Source: Bacteroidota bacterium (lineage in GTDB: Bacteria; Bacteroidota; Bacteroidia; Bacteroidales; VadinHA17). Taken from it: DNA of 64,000 nucleotides. Positions 1 to 9,537 of the stretch are shown one piece after another; position 1 is the stretch's first letter; each line of letters starts with the position of its first letter. The position numbers and the translations under genes are program-made. A model generated the notes under the pieces. That model saw only the letters and a list, made by a program, of their open reading frames with translations. It was not told where the DNA came from and ran no database searches. The DNA is taken from assembly GCA_018262715.1 (NCBI GenBank), contig JADFDS010000011.1:227760-291759 (forward strand). The letters run 5' to 3'.

Positions 1-180
1 GTAAAGCCTGACATATTCGTCGAACATGGCCATGTACCTCAATACCTGCTCATTACTCAGGTGTTTTGCCAGGAAAAGCCTGACAATGTCCCTTCCCCTG
101 CCTGATATCTCAGGATCATCGTGAACATCACCTATCAGTGCGAAAAGCTGAATCAGGGCTTTCAGAATGGGTTCACTCAT
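1..180 (-). CDS. N-terminal fragment of a CDS running off the left edge (MSEPILKALIQLFALIGDVHDDPEISGRGRDIVRLFLAKHLSNEQVLRYMAMFDEYVRLY...); resembles the N-terminus of large Bacteroidota ABC-ATPase/TerB-like proteins
   Basis: Open frame on the minus strand from ATG at 180 to the window edge, read manually; family resemblance only from memory. Confidence 0.45.
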   Translation of the reverse strand, partial: MSEPILKALIQLFALIGDVHDDPEISGRGRDIVRLFLAKHLSNEQVLRYMAMFDEYVRLY

Positions 181-382: not shown

Positions 383-784
383 ATGGACAAGCTGATTCTC
401 AGCCCGACTGTTTTCACGCCCAGGGTCATTCTTGATCATGAAGAGCATTATCTTGAAATCTCAGGAGAGTCAAGGCCAAACGACGTACGCGAGTTCTTCG
501 GACCTATCATTCAGTGGATGAATGATTACAGCGAGTCGCTTCAGAGATCAGGCAACCTCGGCAAACCTGTTGTCTCGCATTTTAACTTCAATTACTTCAA
601 TTCTGCATCTGCGAAATGCATTCTCGATATTTGCAAGATACTTGCCAGGATAAAGTCAGGAGGAACGGACATCTCAGTTAAATGGTATTATGTCATGGGT
701 GATGATGACATGAAGGAGACAGGCAGGGAGATGGAAATGATTGTAAACCTACCCTTCGAACTGATAGAGATTCAGAGTCAATGA
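383..784 (+). CDS. SiaC-family (DUF1987) regulatory phosphoprotein
   Basis: Protein MDKLILSPTVFTPRVILDHEEHYLEISGESRPNDVREFFGPIIQWM... has the DUF1987/SiaC pattern; stop overlaps the ATG of the next gene (ATGA). Confidence 0.85.
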   Translation: MDKLILSPTVFTPRVILDHEEHYLEISGESRPNDVREFFGPIIQWMNDYSESLQRSGNLGKPVVSHFNFNYFNSASAKCILDICKILARIKSGGTDISVKWYYVMGDDDMKETGREMEMIVNLPFELIEIQSQ

Positions 785-2607
785 CAGCAGACGGAGGACA
801 GGCTGACCCGGTCTGGTTCAGTGAGCAACTTGCCCCATTGGTCGCGGCCAGCCTTTGCAGACATTTCAAAAGAGTTTCCGCGGGCGGCAGGGGTCACCCA
901 GTAAGGACCCGCCATGATCACGCAATGCCAGAAAAGGGATTCTGGCAGGTATATGCAGAAGGGATTCCCTCAAAGTATAATTCTCTGGGGCTTATCATAA
1001 AACCTTTCGGAGAATTCTGCAGGACCTGCATCATTACCGAAGAGGAGATAAATGCCATGGTATCGACGGATATTGAAAGGTTCGCCGGTCAGTCTGGCAT
1101 CGCGGAGCGAAGAGGTTTCTTTCTCACCCTGAATTATCTCATCCCGGCCTGCCTGAAGGAGGCCGGCTGTGAGATCGTCGGACAGGAAGAGGCAGAGGGT
1201 GTGACCGTCTCACTGGCGCGGAAGATAGCCCGGGCGATTCATGCAGGATACCTGCGCGAGATGAACAGGCAGTCATCCTCAATACCCGGGGCAAATGCCG
1301 TCAGAGTTGCAGAATTTGATGATCTGCCGGGTGAGATCCGTGAGTCAAACATAAGCAATGCGCTTCATATACCTTCCAAACTGCTCGCCATAGGTTACAG
1401 GATAAGGCCTGTCAGGAAGGGCTATAAAGCAAAGGCTTTGCATCTTGATGACGAAGAAATTGAAACTATGGCCAGGGTGGAGCATCTCAGGTGGAGCTGG
1501 GAGAAAAGGCTCTGCGGGTGGACATACGGAAAGACAAGGGATGAGCGACATAAAAGGCATCCTAACCTGGTGCCTTACGGAGACCTGACTGATGATGAGA
1601 AGCAAAAGGATCGTGAGCTGGTACGGATGGTGCCGGGCATACTCCGGGACATAAGATTTGAAGCATACCCGGTATCATCCGGACATACGGCCAGGCTGGC
1701 GTATGCCCTTAAACCACGGAGCAGCATTCAGAAGCTTCTGCTGGGTACAAATGACCTCAGCGCAGAGATAAGCCTCCTTACCGGGAATTCGCCCTCAATC
1801 ATGGAAAAGCTGAGATCAATCGATGACAGGATCAGGCTTACGATAAATGAGGTGGAGGGCAGCTACAACTATGCCAGGTACATACAGGATGCTTTTCTGC
1901 CGGGTGACCTTGATATCAGGGAATGCTTCACCGACAGTTTTGTCCTGTTCGAGCCCAGAGATATCGTAAGCGGTGATTTCTACCTCTTCAGCAGGCAGGA
2001 GGGCATGGTTACCTTTGGTCTGGCTGATTGTACAGGGCATGGCATACCGGCGGCACTTATAAGCACAATCGGATACGGAATCCTTGACCAGTCAGTGAAT
2101 ATCCTGAAGATTGACGATCCCTCAGAGGCACTTTCAAATCTCTACTCCGGCATTCACAGGTTCCTGCGGAAAGATGACCGGGAATCAGGGCTGCCGGATG
2201 ATATGACAATCGTTCTGTGCAGGTTTGACCCGGTTTCGATGAGGCTGTACCATGCCGGTGCCGGAAATGCAATTTTTCATGTCACTGACGGGAAAATCTC
2301 GGGAAATCTCTCAGGGATGCTCTCCGGGGGCCAGCTCAGCAACGGAAACTATGGTTTTAAGACCAGGACACTTCAGCTTGACACGCATGACGTGCTCTAT
2401 CTCTGCTCTGACGGATTTGCAGATCAGTTTGGAGGCGGCAATCACCGGCGGTACGGCTGGAACCGGCTTCGTGACTTCCTGCTTGAAATAAGCGGGCATC
2501 CCATGGCTGAGCAGGGTGACATGCTGTATGAGGAACTTGAGCAATGGCGGGGCGAGACGGATGAAGACCAGACGGACGATATTACAGTCATCGGCATCAG
2601 GGTGTGA
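781..2607 (+). CDS. SpoIIE/PP2C-family protein phosphatase with internal RyR (ryanodine receptor) domain
   Basis: C-terminal SpoIIE motifs (FVLFEPRDIVSGDFYLF...FGLADCTGHGIPAALIS...DDMTIVLCRF...DDITVIGIRV); central RyR-like ARVEHLRWSWEKRLCGWTYGKTRDERHKRHPNLVPYGDLTDDEKQKDRELVRMVPGIL. Confidence 0.85.
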   Translation: MTADGGQADPVWFSEQLAPLVAASLCRHFKRVSAGGRGHPVRTRHDHAMPEKGFWQVYAEGIPSKYNSLGLIIKPFGEFCRTCIITEEEINAMVSTDIERFAGQSGIAERRGFFLTLNYLIPACLKEAGCEIVGQEEAEGVTVSLARKIARAIHAGYLREMNRQSSSIPGANAVRVAEFDDLPGEIRESNISNALHIPSKLLAIGYRIRPVRKGYKAKALHLDDEEIETMARVEHLRWSWEKRLCGWTYGKTRDERHKRHPNLVPYGDLTDDEKQKDRELVRMVPGILRDIRFEAYPVSSGHTARLAYALKPRSSIQKLLLGTNDLSAEISLLTGNSPSIMEKLRSIDDRIRLTINEVEGSYNYARYIQDAFLPGDLDIRECFTDSFVLFEPRDIVSGDFYLFSRQEGMVTFGLADCTGHGIPAALISTIGYGILDQSVNILKIDDPSEALSNLYSGIHRFLRKDDRESGLPDDMTIVLCRFDPVSMRLYHAGAGNAIFHVTDGKISGNLSGMLSGGQLSNGNYGFKTRTLQLDTHDVLYLCSDGFADQFGGGNHRRYGWNRLRDFLLEISGHPMAEQGDMLYEELEQWRGETDEDQTDDITVIGIRV

Positions 2608-2667
2608 CGGTTTTTGCTGCGGGGGCTCCTGAAACCTGACCGGACCCCGGACGGTGCCATTACTTTA

Positions 2668-2699
2668 TTTGACATGGCCCTTTTAGTTTCCTAACTTTG
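2668..2699 (+). promoter_or_regulatory. Bacteroidota-type promoter TTTG-N20-TAACTTTG upstream of first TIR gene
   Basis: TTTG at 2668-2671 and TAACTTTG at 2692-2699, 20-nt spacer; matches the known -33 TTTG / -7 TAnnTTTG consensus. Confidence 0.65.
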
Positions 2700-2717
2700 A
2701 TAAAATGAATTTATTAG

Positions 2718-5105
2718 ATGGCCAGCCTTGTCCCGGGATATGAGTATGACATCTTCATCAGCTACCGGCAGAAAGATAACAGGTATGACGGCTGGGTCAC
2801 TGAATTTGTTGATCATCTTAAGAGCGAACTGGAAGCCACCTTCAAGGAAGAGATAAGTGTCTGGTTCGATCTGAATCCGCATGACGGTCTGCTTGATGCA
2901 CATGATGTGGATGAATCACTCAGGGAAAAACTGAAATGCCTCGTCTTTATTCCGGTAATATCCCGAACCTACTGTGACCCCAGATCCTTCGCATGGGAGC
3001 ATGAGTTCATGGCCTTTATGGGGATGGCTGCCGGCGACAGGTTCGGACTGAAGGTGAAACTCCCTGCCGGGAATGTGGCATCCAGGGTCTTGCCGGTTCA
3101 GATCCATGAGCTTAAACCTGATGACAGGTCTCTTGTTGAGGAGGCCCTGGGCGGATTTCTCAGGCCGATAGAATTTGTTTACGCCGAACCGGGCGTAAAC
3201 CGCCCTCTTACGCCGGGAGATTCTGCTGAAAAGAACCTTCACAAAATCAGTTACCGCAACCAGGTCAACAAGGTTGCCAATACAATAGATGAAGTTATCT
3301 CAGGCATTGTCAGGGCAGCAGCAGCCCAATCAGCGGATCAGTTGGCCGGAACCACACCGCCATCTGAGATCCGGGCAGAAAAACATGTCGGCGGCAGACT
3401 CAAGGCAAACCGGGAAAAATGGGTGTCAATAGGTTCAGGTTCCCTGATTATCGTCCTGGCGCTCATTTCCCTGTATCTGTTCTCGGGTGGAACCAGACTG
3501 CCGTTCTCCGAGCGCGACTGGATACTGATTTCAGATTTCGAGAACAACACCGGCAATCCTGTTTTTGACAAGTCGCTTTACACCGCCTTTTCCATCTCAG
3601 CCGGTCAGTCGAGGTATGCCAATGTTTTTACCAGGTCAAGGATGCTCGAAGCATTGTCAAGGATGAAAATGGCAGGTCTGAAATTCATCGACGAGCCTAC
3701 CGGCAGGGAGATCGCCCTGCGTGAAGGGATCAGCCTCATGATAGTGCCCGGCATAAGTGAAGCCGGGAATCAGTATGCCATCACGGCAAAAATCATTGAA
3801 ACGAAAACGGGCAATTCCCTGAGATCAGAAATCCTGTATGCTGCGAACGAGGCTGAGATACTGCCCGTGATCGACAAATTAAGCAGGAAGATCCGCAAAG
3901 ACCTTGGTGAGTCGAGATACGATATTTCTCTTCAGGACAAGCCCCTGACAAGAGTAACTACCTCATCTCTTCCAGCCCTGCAACAATATTCGCTGGGGCA
4001 TGAGAGCCATCTCTTTTCTGATTTCAGGAGGGCAAGGGAATTCTATGAGAATGCACTCAGGGCAGACACGGGATTTGTGGCAGCAAAAGCATCACTGGGC
4101 AATATTTTAATTCAGAAATTCAATGATTCTTCCGGGAAAGCGCTGGTGAGGCAGGCGGTAAGGGATGCCGGAAACCTGACTGACCGGGAACGGTACAGCA
4201 TACTTGCCTTTTATGCTGAAAATATTGAACATGACTTCGATAAGGCAATTGCCAATATGGAAATATTAAAGAGGCTCTATCCTGATGACCCTGTAATTCA
4301 TAATAATCTCGGCTGGTACCATCAGCAGAACGGGCAGTACGAACTGGCACTGCCGGAATACAAACAGGCAGTCAGGGTAAATCCTCACATGATCCTGACC
4401 TATTCCGGCATTCTCTGGATATACGGAGAGTACATCGGCAATGCTGATTCGGTGGATGTCTGGGCAAAAAAAATGGTTGCAGACAATCCCGACAGTCCAT
4501 GGGCATATTACTATATGGCATCGGCATGGTTGTTCCGTGACAGTATAGAGAAAAGCATAGAATGCCATCAAAAGGCCAGAGAGTTATCGCCGGGTTTAAT
4601 GATAAATAATTACCGGCTGGGCCACACTTACATGGATTCGGGGAGGTATGACGAAGCAATAGAGGTCTTTGAAGAAATCCTGGCCATTGATCCGGAAGAG
4701 TACTCTGCATATTATAATCTTGGTTGTTGTCATGAAGCCCTGGGAAATCAGCCGGACGCAAGAGCCTGCTTCCTGAAGTTCAGGAAAAATGCTGAGGAAA
4801 AATGGTTGAAACACTACCCTGACTATTACGCAACCTATACAACACTCGCCTCTGTGGCTGCCAGGCTTGACGAGATGGAACTGTCGCGGCAGCTGCTGAA
4901 TAAAGCAGTTGAACTTGATTCTGCACAGTATTTTTCCTTCGCAGAAGTGCTGTGTGTCCAGGGCGAAATCCCGGAAGCCATTGATAATTTTGAACTTGCC
5001 CTTGAGCATGGCTACAGGAGTCTATATGGGCTTAAAGGCAATCCCGAACTGGCAGCGCTCCGGTTTGACATCCGCCTTAAAAACCTGCTGGATAAATATT
5101 TCTGA
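2718..5105 (+). CDS. TIR domain - TM - FlgO/TolB-like - TPR protein (paralog 1)
   Basis: N-terminal TIR (YDIFISYRQKDNRYDGWVTEFVDHLKSELEATF...VISRTYCDPRSFAWEHEF); TM helix GSGSLIIVLALISLYLF; C-terminal TPRs. Confidence 0.85.
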   Translation: MASLVPGYEYDIFISYRQKDNRYDGWVTEFVDHLKSELEATFKEEISVWFDLNPHDGLLDAHDVDESLREKLKCLVFIPVISRTYCDPRSFAWEHEFMAFMGMAAGDRFGLKVKLPAGNVASRVLPVQIHELKPDDRSLVEEALGGFLRPIEFVYAEPGVNRPLTPGDSAEKNLHKISYRNQVNKVANTIDEVISGIVRAAAAQSADQLAGTTPPSEIRAEKHVGGRLKANREKWVSIGSGSLIIVLALISLYLFSGGTRLPFSERDWILISDFENNTGNPVFDKSLYTAFSISAGQSRYANVFTRSRMLEALSRMKMAGLKFIDEPTGREIALREGISLMIVPGISEAGNQYAITAKIIETKTGNSLRSEILYAANEAEILPVIDKLSRKIRKDLGESRYDISLQDKPLTRVTTSSLPALQQYSLGHESHLFSDFRRAREFYENALRADTGFVAAKASLGNILIQKFNDSSGKALVRQAVRDAGNLTDRERYSILAFYAENIEHDFDKAIANMEILKRLYPDDPVIHNNLGWYHQQNGQYELALPEYKQAVRVNPHMILTYSGILWIYGEYIGNADSVDVWAKKMVADNPDSPWAYYYMASAWLFRDSIEKSIECHQKARELSPGLMINNYRLGHTYMDSGRYDEAIEVFEEILAIDPEEYSAYYNLGCCHEALGNQPDARACFLKFRKNAEEKWLKHYPDYYATYTTLASVAARLDEMELSRQLLNKAVELDSAQYFSFAEVLCVQGEIPEAIDNFELALEHGYRSLYGLKGNPELAALRFDIRLKNLLDKYF

Positions 5106-5209
5106 CCTGACTCAATGGTTCACACCGGGGCGCAGCAGGTTAAGTTTATACAGCATTGACAATGAACTGATTTAATATATTTTGAGAAGGAGGGTAACGG
5201 CTGAAAATA

Positions 5210-5241
5210 TTTGGTTTGCCTTGTGCACTTTCGTAACTTTA
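5210..5241 (+). promoter_or_regulatory. Bacteroidota-type promoter TTTG-N20-TAACTTTA upstream of second TIR gene
   Basis: TTTG at 5210-5213, TAACTTTA at 5234-5241, 20-nt spacer; same layout as the promoter of paralog 1. Confidence 0.6.
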
Positions 5242-5259
5242 TAAAAATGGACGGATAAC

Positions 5260-7728
5260 ATGGCCTCACTTATAGCGGGATACGGGTATGATATCTTTAT
5301 CAGCTACCGCCAGAATGATAACAGGCACGACGGATGGGTCACCCGGTTCGTGGACCATCTGAAGGGAGAGCTTGAAGCCACATTCAAGGAGGAGGTCTCC
5401 GTTTACTTTGACCTGAATCCTCATAACGGCCTTCTTGATACTCATGACGTTGACGAATCGCTGAAGGAAAAGCTGAAATGCCTGATCTTTATTCCGGTTA
5501 TATCCCGGACCTACTGTGACCCCAAATCGTTTGCATGGGAACATGAGTTCAGGGCGTTTGCAGGGATGGCTTCCAATGACAGTCTCGGGCTGAAGGTTAC
5601 TCTGCACAGCGGCAACGTGGCAAGCCGGATACTGCCCGTACGGATACATGAGCTCGATGATGAGGACAACAGGCTGATTGAGAAGGAAACCGGAGGCGTA
5701 CTCAGGGCTATTGATTTTGTCTACCGGGAACCCGGAGTCAACCGACCTCTCACACCTGATGATGACGAGCACAGGAACCTGTCAGGAACCAGGTACCGCA
5801 ATCAGATCAATAAGACAGCCAATGCTGTCAGGGAGATAATCCTGGCCTTGCAGTCAGAACATCACCCGGCACACCGGGAAAAACTATCCGGGAAAGAACC
5901 GTGGGAAGAGCCTGTGAAGGCGCATGCCGGTAACGGGAAGCGGAAAATCAGCGAATTGTTGACGCCGAAACGTCTCCTCACTCTTCTGGTGCCGGTTCTT
6001 GCAATAGGATTGTCTCTGCTTTTGCTGTCGAGGTTTGCCGGCCGCCCCGGAAGACCGGCAGGAATCAATGAAAAATCAATAGCAGTGCTTCCGTTCGAGA
6101 TTATCGGGTCCGGAAACGGGAATATATGGCTGGGCGATGCACTTACAGATGAGATCATTTCGCAGCTGTGCAAGATCAATGACCTGGAGGTACGGCCCAG
6201 GACTTCCGTCATGAGGTACAGGGCAACAACCATATCAATACCTGCTATCGGGCGCGAGCTGGGCACAAATTATATCATTGAAGGTAACTGTCAGATATTC
6301 AATGAAGTTGTTAGGATAACGGTAAAACTCATAAATGCCCGGAAAGATCAGCAGCTCTGGAGTGACGTCTTTGAGGGTACATGGGACTCACTGCACGGGA
6401 TGCAGACAGACATAGCCATTAAGACTGCAGCCACCCTACAGGCGGTGCTCACCCCTGAAGAAAAAGCACGTATTGAGAAAAATCCTACCGGAAGTGCAGG
6501 GGCCTACCGTAATTTCCTGAAAGCCAATGTTCTTTCTGACAATGCCCAGTATTTTCTGCTCGCGGGTAACCGGTTTGTTGACTCCATAAGCTTTACTGCT
6601 GCCATCTCGATGTACGATAAGGCAATTGCAGAGGACCCTGGCTTTGCCCTTGCCTATGCCAGGAGGGCCATAGCACGTTCATGGGGATACTATTCAGGTC
6701 AGCTTGATGATTCGCACCTGCTAAAATGCAAGGCTGACGCTGACAGGGCGTTCGCACTTGACAATAACCTGCCTGATGCCCGCATTGCGCTGGGATTTTA
6801 CAACTACTACTGCATGAGGGATTACCGGGAAGCGCTCTCCCAGTTCAGCCGGGCAGCTGAGACAGACCCCGCAGATTATCAGCCTCCGTTCTATATGGCC
6901 ATGGTCTACCGCAGGATGGGCGAATGGCAGAAATCACAGGATCTCCTGAGGAAGGTAATGATGGAAGATCCACGGGATGCGATTGTGCTTATCAATATTG
7001 GAACATCATTTGTCTTTATGCACAGTTTCGATACTGCCCTTGTTCAGTTCAGCAAAGCAATAAATGTCATGCCGGAATGGCCCGGACCCTACATCAATGC
7101 GATAGATGCCTGCCTGCTGAAAGACGGGAATACCACCATGGCGCGGGAGATGCTTGACTCCCTCACGGCCAGGACCGGCCGGACAGATAATTATTTCAGG
7201 ATCTTCCTGAATATCTGCGATGGCAGGTACCGCGATGCCCTGAATGATTTACAGTCTTCATCCAATGATGACTTCGAGTCTCCGGGACTCCGGTACCTGT
7301 TGAGCGGGCTGTCATACGGCCTTATCAATGATGAGGCAATGACTACGGCGTACTATGATTCTGCACTGGTGACATACAAGAAGCTAATAATGGAGAACCC
7401 GGACGACTATTATTCTCACAGTTGCATCGGACTGGCATACGCCGGCCTGGGAAATGCAACTGACGCAGTCATTGCCGGAAAAACCGCAGTGCAGCTCGCC
7501 GGTGACAACTACCTGGTAAAACATGACATGATTGTCAACCTGGCCAAAATATATGCCATGACCGGAAACTATCCCGAGGCAATACGTCAGGTGGAATATC
7601 TTCTGACCAATCCCTCATGGTTCTCACTGAACATCATCCGGATTGATCCGTCATGGGGAAAGCTGTCAGAAACCCCTGAGTTCAGGACAATGGCAAGGGG
7701 GACAGGCAATTATAAAAAACCTCTTTAG
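5260..7728 (+). CDS. TIR domain - TM - TolB/FlgO-like - TPR protein (paralog 2)
   Basis: N-terminal ~200 aa near-identical in layout to paralog 1 (MASLIAGYGYDIFISYRQNDNRHDGWVTRFVDHLKGELEATFKEEVSVYFDLNPH...FAWEHEF); TM LTLLVPVLAIGLSLLLL; SIAVLPFEIIGSGNGNIWLGDALTDEIISQLCKI is TolB/FlgO-like; then TPRs. Confidence 0.85.
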   Translation: MASLIAGYGYDIFISYRQNDNRHDGWVTRFVDHLKGELEATFKEEVSVYFDLNPHNGLLDTHDVDESLKEKLKCLIFIPVISRTYCDPKSFAWEHEFRAFAGMASNDSLGLKVTLHSGNVASRILPVRIHELDDEDNRLIEKETGGVLRAIDFVYREPGVNRPLTPDDDEHRNLSGTRYRNQINKTANAVREIILALQSEHHPAHREKLSGKEPWEEPVKAHAGNGKRKISELLTPKRLLTLLVPVLAIGLSLLLLSRFAGRPGRPAGINEKSIAVLPFEIIGSGNGNIWLGDALTDEIISQLCKINDLEVRPRTSVMRYRATTISIPAIGRELGTNYIIEGNCQIFNEVVRITVKLINARKDQQLWSDVFEGTWDSLHGMQTDIAIKTAATLQAVLTPEEKARIEKNPTGSAGAYRNFLKANVLSDNAQYFLLAGNRFVDSISFTAAISMYDKAIAEDPGFALAYARRAIARSWGYYSGQLDDSHLLKCKADADRAFALDNNLPDARIALGFYNYYCMRDYREALSQFSRAAETDPADYQPPFYMAMVYRRMGEWQKSQDLLRKVMMEDPRDAIVLINIGTSFVFMHSFDTALVQFSKAINVMPEWPGPYINAIDACLLKDGNTTMAREMLDSLTARTGRTDNYFRIFLNICDGRYRDALNDLQSSSNDDFESPGLRYLLSGLSYGLINDEAMTTAYYDSALVTYKKLIMENPDDYYSHSCIGLAYAGLGNATDAVIAGKTAVQLAGDNYLVKHDMIVNLAKIYAMTGNYPEAIRQVEYLLTNPSWFSLNIIRIDPSWGKLSETPEFRTMARGTGNYKKPL

Positions 7729-7750: not shown

Positions 7751-7966
7751 ATGACAAGTTTCGATGACGGGGAAATGTTCAGGCCTTTTCCAAGACCTTT
7801 CCCGATGCATGCTGTGCAGTATTTCAGTCCGCAGGATCTTAATCCGGCGCAGCGGAAAGCTCTGGCGACCATGCTGCTTGAGTTTTATCAGAAATGTGCA
7901 ATGGAGGAACAGAAACTGATCACAGGTATGATCAGTGTAATAAACAACCTCGAGAGCAAGGGTTGA
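7751..7966 (+). CDS. 71-aa small protein of unknown function (MTSFDDGEMFRPFPRPFPMHAVQYFSPQDLNPAQRKALATMLLEFYQKCAMEEQKLITGMISVINNLESKG)
   Basis: ATG at 7751, 22 nt after the TIR2 stop; TGA overlaps a TTG start for the downstream radical SAM gene (TTGA). Confidence 0.65.
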   Translation: MTSFDDGEMFRPFPRPFPMHAVQYFSPQDLNPAQRKALATMLLEFYQKCAMEEQKLITGMISVINNLESKG

Positions 7967-9537
7967 ATCCTTCCTTGAAACCTGTTTTGTTAGTTGCCTT
8001 CGGCGAAGAAGAAAACCTGGGGGTGGGGTATCTTATGTCCGTGCTGCAGGGAGCAGGAATTACCAGCCGTATGATCGATATACGGTATGACAGTGAAGAA
8101 ATACTTGCAGCCATAAAAAGAGAGAGTCCTGTTGTGGTGGGATTCTCGGTGATCTATGAAACGTGCCTCGACGGTTTCACGGAGCTTGTCAGCTATCTCA
8201 GAAAGGGTGGTGTTGACTGTCACTTCACTGCCGGAGGCCATTACGCCAGCCTCTATCCCGAAGAACTCTTCGGATTTATTCCAGGCCTTGATTCTGTTGT
8301 CAGGTTTGAGGGCGAGTACACATTCCCTGAGCTTGTAAATTGCCTCGTGACAGCCTCTGACTGGAAAGGACTCAGAAACCTGGCGTACCGCGAAAATGGG
8401 AGGGTAATCAGAACACCTCTGCGGGAACCGGAGAAGAACCTTGACAATTTCCCGTATCCTTACCGGAGGCCCCTCCGGGAGTATGCGCTGGGTAAACGAT
8501 ACTCAACAATAATTTCCGGAAGAGGATGTACATATAGCTGTTCCTTCTGCAATACCGGGGAGTTCTACAGGCAGGCCGGCGGACCACTTAAGCGAATAAG
8601 GAGGCCGGAGGCTGTCGTGGATGAGATGTTGCGCCTCTACTCAGAAAGCGGATGCAGGATTTTTCTTTTTCAGGATGATGACAACCCGGTGAAAACTGCC
8701 GGCGGCAATCTATGGATAAAGTCGTTCTGCAGTGAAATAGAGCGGACAGGCCTTCTGGGCCGGGTAATCTGGAAGATGAACTGCAGGCCTGATGAAATTG
8801 AGCCGGAGATTTTTTCAATCATGAAAAGGCATGGACTCTTTCTCGTATTCATCGGATTGGAAGACGGGACCGACGAGGGGCTGAAACGGTTTAACAAGAA
8901 GATGACTGTGGAATCTGCAAGGTATGGCGTTGAGGTTCTCCGGCAGCTCGGAATCGGATTTGATTACGGTTATATTCTTTTCCAGCCTGAATCGACTTTC
9001 TCATCACTCAGGGAGAGCCTGCGTTTCCTTGAGGAGATCTGCAGGGATAACCTTGTTCCCATTACCTTTCTCAAGCTCATACCTTACTTCGGTACCCGGG
9101 TGGAAAGAGAATTAAGGGAAGCCGGCCGGCTGACCGGCAGGCCGGGGAATTTCGATTATAGTTACCTGACTCCGGCCCTTGACGCCTGCTGGGGTGCAGT
9201 TTTAAATTGCTTTGATGAGTGGCTGTGGGGCCGCAGGGGTGCAGTGAATCTTGCAAAATGGGTCAGGAATTGCCTTGCAGTCCGGGATCATTTCGGAAAA
9301 CCAGATGAAATTGTTGAGAGACAGAGGTCATCATACTGCGAGACCGTCGCTCAGGGCAATCAATTTCTGGCTGAGACCCTGTACGGATTGTTCGACTGTT
9401 TTGAGTCAGGCAGGCACCTTTCAGAAGGGCAGGAAAGAATCGAAAGAATAGCGCTGGAATCTGCCAGAAGACACGATATTATCTGCGGAACCTTCAGGGA
9501 AAACCTCCGGGCAATCCAGGAGGAATCATCGCGCTGA
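7963..9537 (+). CDS. B12-binding-domain radical SAM protein
   Basis: N-terminal cobalamin-binding-like domain (VLLVAFGEEENLGVGYLMSVLQGAGI...VVVGFSVIYE); CxxxCxxC motif GRGCTYSCSFCNTGEF. Probable TTG start at 7963 (the ORF track uses 7894). Confidence 0.85.
   Translation: MNPSLKPVLLVAFGEEENLGVGYLMSVLQGAGITSRMIDIRYDSEEILAAIKRESPVVVGFSVIYETCLDGFTELVSYLRKGGVDCHFTAGGHYASLYPEELFGFIPGLDSVVRFEGEYTFPELVNCLVTASDWKGLRNLAYRENGRVIRTPLREPEKNLDNFPYPYRRPLREYALGKRYSTIISGRGCTYSCSFCNTGEFYRQAGGPLKRIRRPEAVVDEMLRLYSESGCRIFLFQDDDNPVKTAGGNLWIKSFCSEIERTGLLGRVIWKMNCRPDEIEPEIFSIMKRHGLFLVFIGLEDGTDEGLKRFNKKMTVESARYGVEVLRQLGIGFDYGYILFQPESTFSSLRESLRFLEEICRDNLVPITFLKLIPYFGTRVERELREAGRLTGRPGNFDYSYLTPALDACWGAVLNCFDEWLWGRRGAVNLAKWVRNCLAVRDHFGKPDEIVERQRSSYCETVAQGNQFLAETLYGLFDCFESGRHLSEGQERIERIALESARRHDIICGTFRENLRAIQEESSR

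Follow-up and report, generated by a model that had tools for sequence, protein, structure and literature searches.

A locus of a Bacteroidota bacterium (Bacteroidales; VadinHA17) combines genes for TIR proteins with a predicted transmembrane segment and the gene of a protein phosphatase that carries an RyR-type sensor half, and the gene evidence points to a TIR messenger that sets a phosphorylation switch. The locus lies in a stretch of 64,000 nucleotides (the window; contig JADFDS010000011.1, positions 227,760-291,759). It encodes SiaC (DUF1987), the phosphatase (RyR-PP2C), and two proteins, TIR1 and TIR2, each with a TIR domain, a transmembrane segment and a TPR part (TIR-TPR proteins). TIR proteins of other organisms make small immune messengers from nicotinamide adenine dinucleotide (NAD), and most of what is known of TIR messengers concerns signals for death or immunity. 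The linkage of TIR and RyR-PP2C genes is well supported, and the genes very probably form a working unit. The full mechanism, a second-messenger-controlled partner switch in which a TIR-made nucleotide would act through the RyR domain and the PP2C domain on Ser74 of SiaC, is the reading towards which we lean. The features concerned, all on the plus strand, are as follows.

383-784, plus strand: SiaC (DUF1987) phosphoprotein, predicted phosphatase substrate (Pfam SiaC, 3e-31; PDB SiaC 6kko, E 1.1e-10)
602-604, plus strand: codon of SiaC Ser74, which corresponds in the 6kko alignment to the phosphoacceptor Thr68 of Pseudomonas aeruginosa SiaC
781-2607, plus strand: RyR-PP2C protein phosphatase, 608 amino acids, no transmembrane segment (Pfam; AlphaFold model)
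931-1692, plus strand: tandem RyR-like units, residues about 51-304, comparable to animal RyR Repeat12 (model and Foldseek)
1459-1626, plus strand: canonical RyR domain, residues 227-282 (Pfam, 7.6e-15)
1483-1485, 1492-1494, 1558-1560 and 1609-1611, plus strand: codons of the RyR pocket residues H235, W238, H260 and D277, respectively
1723-1896, plus strand: helical linker from RyR to PP2C, residues 315-372 (model secondary structure)
1936-2604, plus strand: SpoIIE/PP2C domain, SiaA-like (Pfam, 3.1e-21)
2668-2699, plus strand: Bacteroidota-type promoter match (TTTG-20-TAACTTTG), 5′ of TIR1
2718-5105, plus strand: TIR1, with the TIR domain in residues 1-205, a transmembrane segment at about 236-254 and then a TolB-like/TPR region
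3003-3005, plus strand: codon of the putative catalytic glutamate E96 of TIR1 (motif alignment)
5260-7728, plus strand: TIR2, of the same architecture as TIR1, with the putative catalytic glutamate codon at 5545-5547

The stop codon of siaC and the start codon of the phosphatase gene share a 4-base ATGA overlap, which, together with the coordinates, strand and gene order given in a preliminary description of this DNA, was borne out on rechecking. That description had made the wiring dependent on the co-occurrence of the phosphatase and SiaC genes with TIR genes in other genomes. In a family sample of 117 genomes, 39 have an RyR domain and 31 retain RyR-PP2C after sorting by architecture. A TIR gene lies within four genes in 24 of the 27 RyR-PP2C loci that have enough flank, the usual order being SiaC, RyR-PP2C, one to three TIR-TPR genes and a B12-binding radical SAM gene, and the genomes of the three remaining loci (G089, G042 and G029) have their TIRs elsewhere. 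The TIR family of the window is carried by 30 of the 31 RyR-PP2C genomes, and in G010, which lacks it, a different TIR gene lies immediately downstream of the phosphatase gene, so that the expected co-occurrence was found (Fisher p 4e-17 in the family and 3e-5 within the genus, both ignoring kinship). G084 was left out of consideration: a TIR gene without its N-terminal part comes straight after SiaC there, which may reflect an assembly join.

The association recurs with TIRs of other kinds. In G010 (L122; Bacteroidales bin64) the TIR-TPR protein encoded next to RyR-PP2C differs from those of the window and is the sole TIR_2 match of a 2.9-Mb genome. In two Spirochaetales metagenome-assembled genomes (L125 and L126), a gene for a TIR protein with several transmembrane segments lies directly upstream of RyR-PP2C, joined to it in L126 by an ATGA overlap; the TIR beside RyR-PP2C is the only TIR_2 match in the 6.8 Mb of one Spirochaetales genome, G506, and G505 has 19. 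The TIRs of G010 and of the Spirochaetales show little sequence similarity to those of the window, so that three dissimilar TIR types adjoin RyR-PP2C. Such non-orthologous TIRs, found beside RyR-PP2C in another Bacteroidales genus and in Spirochaetota, leave shared synteny by itself as a poor explanation of the link. That TIR and phosphatase are functionally unlinked and merely inherited together thus seems very improbable and is already disfavoured, even though two sister genera maintain a stable ABC-SiaC-RyR block and some TIR-TPRs occur alone.

The fusion is rare beyond the family, since a search of 393 wider Bacteroidales genomes gave no full-length RyR-PP2C match outside the genome of the window itself. 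Among 299 genomes of the Spirochaetal class it was found in the same two already known, with two further RyR matches. An RyR-PP2C contig binned as an archaeon (L108; 3.5 kb, about 50% identical) was treated as a probable mis-binning. By a regex-based count within loci, other RyR proteins lie near TIR genes somewhat above expectation (p about 0.01). RyR proteins without PP2C were also seen near TIR genes in methanogens and Chloroflexi (L129, L134, L136, L147, L159 and L173), a hint that RyR and TIR are associated beyond the RyR-PP2C module.

The two TIRs are the only TIR-family matches found in the genome of the window. Their sequence support is weaker than the preliminary description had implied: TIR1 scores 16-19 bits against the TIR_2 cut-off of 28 in Pfam and TIR2 gives no match, and 28 of 29 TIR relatives match TIR_2 weakly (best E 1.3e-4). 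The TIR assignment itself stands on fold and on an invariant glutamate. Fold comparison was used because the TIRs have no sequence match in the PDB; the AlphaFold model (predicted local distance difference test, pLDDT, 87) finds TIR domains in all of its 21 best PDB fold matches with a probability of 0.99-1.00, led by RUN1 with NAD, SARM1 with NAD and PdTIR. In an alignment of the 29 relatives the FISYR box is kept and the column of the putative catalytic glutamate (Glu96), assigned by motif alignment, is invariant. Each TIR domain is followed by one transmembrane segment. TIR1 and TIR2 are 70% identical in the TIR domain and 22% in the remainder, and neighbouring TIR-TPR paralogues have median identities of 68% and 24% in the corresponding parts, a conservation of the TIR part with divergence of the rest that is expected if many sensors feed one common signal. 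In the genus g13 (L034-L089) this family has grown to as many as 27 copies in a single genome, many of them arranged in tandem, and here too the TIR part is conserved and the TPR part has diverged; such copy numbers also favour many inputs to one signal. Residues 244-552 of TIR1 resemble cyclase-transmembrane-TPR proteins (TIGR04510; 4.8e-64, below the curated cut-off): the membrane-proximal and TPR regions are alike, whereas in TIR1 the TIR domain occupies the slot of the nucleotide cyclase domain.

The RyR segment that had been described inside the phosphatase passes the hidden Markov model test of Pfam (PF02026; 7.6e-15, 55.4 bits against a cut-off of 27.4) and is the sole RyR found in the genome of the window. 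Its extent had to be revised from a single internal segment to an N-terminal half that is a tandem RyR-like array: in the AlphaFold model, tandem helix-helix-strand-helix units fill about residues 51-304, and Foldseek aligns this array with human RyR3 Repeat12 and a Bacteroides/human chimera (6uhi, 6uha, 6uhh and 9ls7) over 168-205 columns with E about 1e-5. The Spirochaetal relatives of RyR-PP2C give two separate RyR matches. Phage RyR proteins called RyDEP bind 2′/3′ cyclic ADP-ribose (cADPR) through H75, W78, H100 and D117, and two such RyR domains that have been measured do so with nanomolar affinity (2026 preprint, PMC13232231). H235, W238, H260 and D277 of RyR-PP2C are the equivalents of these residues with identical spacing, which an animal RyR alignment also gives, and each of the 34 RyR-PP2C proteins compared has all four. 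This supports nucleotide binding by the predicted pocket; the conserved residues do not fix which ligand.

The other half of the protein and its partner agree with the SpoIIE phosphatase and SiaC of the preliminary description (Pfam 3.1e-21 and 3e-31, respectively). The PP2C domain of SiaA (6k4e) is the best PDB match both by sequence (phmmer 1.3e-28) and by fold (Foldseek TM score 0.86 to the target), and the acidic metal residues D399, D416, D544 and D599/D600 are invariant over 31 relatives. The NCBIfam matches to SiaA (1.7e-48; 165.7 bits against 700) and SiaC (60.9 against 150 bits) are both below the equivalog cut-offs. The phosphosite of P. aeruginosa SiaC is Thr68 (PMC8457831, PMC7647112), and the corresponding Ser74 column holds serine in all 26 aligned SiaC proteins. 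A SiaB kinase was not found in the window locus; three DUF6272 (SiaB-like) copies lie elsewhere in the genome. In a sister genus the same gene usually encodes a DUF6272-SiaC fusion (shown by Pfam for one member and judged from length for the rest), and in the L051 genome DUF6272 and SiaC are probably encoded by separate neighbouring genes. A genome-wide look found no GGDEF protein in the genome of the window, so that the output of SiaC is not of the Pseudomonas type and a cyclic di-GMP output is ruled out.

An outline of the proposed mechanism is as follows: the membrane TIR-TPR proteins would be receptors with cytoplasmic TIR domains, which on stimulation would make an ADP-ribose-type messenger from NAD+; 2′cADPR and 3′cADPR are possible products. 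The messenger would dock in the RyR pocket of RyR-PP2C, and the helical linker would carry the signal on to the SiaA-like PP2C domain, altering its activity on SiaC phosphorylated at Ser74. The change in phosphorylation would then change the binding partner of SiaC. A SiaB-like DUF6272 protein would supply the kinase side; its gene lies at another place in this genome, and sister genomes have it fused to SiaC at this locus. The divergent ABC-2 transporter upstream is a candidate output. In this outline the genes, their domains and residues and the conserved, recurring neighbourhood are shown, and we infer the membrane topology, the TIR product, the RyR ligand, the direction of the switch and the output.

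That a dedicated ADP-ribose-type messenger is made by the membrane TIR receptors and read by an RyR-type domain, which switches the phosphatase and SiaC, is held tentatively, at somewhat less than an even chance. Several observations weigh against the proposed mechanism. The pocket residues are common RyR-family-wide (H, W, H and D are present in 61, 57, 47 and 53, respectively, of 62 other RyR proteins) and so do not single out cADPR, and since there are structures of RyR3 Repeat12 with ATP and AMP-PCP (6uhh, 9ls7), an ordinary adenine nucleotide could serve as the ligand. Both points would suit an RyR that acts as a sensor of a general adenine nucleotide or of a product of NAD breakdown (ATP, ADP-ribose or NAD), in which case TIR NADases would shift NAD metabolism and the phosphatase would read the metabolic state with no dedicated cyclic messenger; so would the linear ADP-ribose that RyDEP still holds after cleavage (PMC13232231). 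We consider this unlikely, because a general metabolic sensor needs no adjoining TIR, yet three dissimilar TIR types are found beside RyR-PP2C. The same three types, of little mutual similarity, are more easily explained by a small molecule in common than by a common interface, and together with the invariant glutamate they make it quite improbable that TIR and RyR meet in direct protein contact with the TIR as a non-enzymatic signalling or scaffold domain, although many TIR domains signal by oligomerisation and the domain here is long (about 200 amino acids) and conserved past the usual TIR core. The RyR domain may instead end the signal, hydrolysing or soaking up the TIR product as RyDEP does, with PP2C tuned as feedback. 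The catalytic residues of RyDEP, H75 and D117, have counterparts in H235 and D277, invariant in 34 of 34, and the DyoEdafos RyDEP cleaves 2′/3′cADPR, but eight other tested phage homologues showed no cleavage despite high conservation (PMC13232231). Fusion to a linker and PP2C is, moreover, the layout of sensor-controlled phosphatases such as those of the RsbU type, in which linker and dimer carry the sensor signal (PMC12143880), and a signal-ending role appears improbable.

Further points against the proposed mechanism come from the genomes and the models. TIR-TPR genes without RyR-PP2C occur in 11-12 genomes, including G062, G033, G059 and G085 (92-97% complete), so that the TIRs can work without this receiver and have other uses. 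G062, G033, G032 and G085 have the closest ABC gene, with the SiaC-RyR position occupied by other genes, and in G062 and G033 the B12-binding radical SAM gene still lies beside the ABC gene though RyR-PP2C is absent. In another Bacteroidales lineage (L123:9791-15834) a DUF4062-NACHT-WD40 gene, not a TIR gene, directly follows RyR-PP2C; two TIR genes are present elsewhere in that genome. Confidence in the model of full-length RyR-PP2C is middling (pLDDT 75), and the TIRs are divergent enough to find nothing in the PDB by sequence, profile search included. The TIR-RyR-PP2C wiring suggested in the preliminary description is partly supported: those of its refutation tests that were run favoured it, through the gene linkage, the RyR model match and the invariant pocket and catalytic residues. 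It needs correcting for the type of SiaC output, which cannot be that of Pseudomonas, and for the TIR-TPR genomes (about 11) that lack RyR-PP2C.

In the literature searched, on RyR and Thoeris too, we found no description of this TIR/RyR/SpoIIE wiring, in agreement with the preliminary description, which knew of no such system. A 2015 comparative study of nucleotide-centred systems is said to have discussed prokaryotic RyR domains. Compared with SiaABC(D) of P. aeruginosa, the window shares a SiaA-like PP2C with intact metal residues, the position of the SiaC phosphosite and, at the genome level, a SiaB-like DUF6272 protein; it differs in having a soluble tandem-RyR sensor where SiaA has its own N-terminal region, no SiaB at the locus, no SiaD-type GGDEF output in the genome, and attached TIR genes. 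Thoeris, with its TIR protein ThsB and cADPR-reading effector, likewise places a TIR protein beside a separate nucleotide-pocket protein, but the reader in the window is RyR rather than SLOG or macro-type, the output is a phosphatase rather than an NADase or other killer, and the TIR is membrane-bound with a TPR part. PADLOC gave no match to the SiaC, RyR-PP2C or TIR proteins of the window, and no SIR2/SLOG or macro effector was among the Pfam matches of the five window proteins scanned; membership in Thoeris was rejected on the lack of a PADLOC match and of a ThsA-type effector. Phage RyDEP and the RyR Repeat12 family (PF02026) share the RyR fold, the tandem units as in animal Repeat12 and the four ligand residues, whereas the RyR of the window is cellular, PP2C-fused and placed as a TIR receiver, RyDEP being phage counter-defence. 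RsbU/RsbP-type phosphatases also have an N-terminal sensor, a helical linker and PP2C, with other sensors and STAS-domain substrates in place of RyR and DUF1987.

The promoter motif TTTG-20-TAACTTTG has 4 matches in the window against 0.5 expected, and the match 5′ of TIR1 is conserved in four relatives (L094-L097), so that the TIRs need not be co-transcribed with siaC-ryr. Separate transcription is plausible in the lineage of the window, and one operon spanning all genes is not established. The gap before the TIR gene is just 7 bp in L104 and L106.

Two further genes flank the locus.

1-180, minus strand: 5′ end of the gene of the divergent ABC-2 type transporter, 1019 amino acids, continuing left of the window (L031:11121-14180)
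7894-9537, plus strand: B12-binding radical SAM protein (Pfam B12-binding 1.4e-18, Radical_SAM 1.5e-14)

The transporter (Pfam ABC_tran 1.7e-31, ABC2_membrane 1.1e-19) may be the output of SiaC or a co-regulated partner, since a paralogue at another locus of this genome (L187, G000:C40) adjoins a SiaB-like/SiaC pair and ABC-2/SiaC pairing is seen in about ten relatives. The protein, roughly 1020 amino acids long, carries its own undescribed N-terminal region. The B12-binding radical SAM gene is a frequent TIR-TPR neighbour, also without RyR-PP2C (L180, L181).

RyR domains were met in other contexts as well. A cassette in which a TrkA-N-RyR gene precedes genes for DUF4062-NACHT-TPR (a Pfam assignment in L064 and one by similarity in the others) and an AAA protein recurs in relatives without RyR-PP2C (L064, L067-L069). 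In a 902-amino-acid protein (L066:6856-9564), a C-terminal RyR domain is joined to a RelA/SpoT-type synthetase region and a weak SLOG-like match. RyR-like matches occur in 139 phage records (including H8 and H19), several annotated merely as RyR domain proteins, which are candidates for RyDEP-type counter-defence.

If the reading with a dedicated messenger is true, these bacteria would have an NAD-derived second-messenger pathway that ends in protein phosphorylation, in which one receiver takes its input from many TIR sensors (relatives have up to 27 per genome). It would also be a cellular parallel to the debated link between cADPR and RyR in animals. In RyR-PP2C, a soluble bacterial protein whose type of substrate is known and whose readout is simple, one could test directly whether RyR-type domains read cADPR-type signals.

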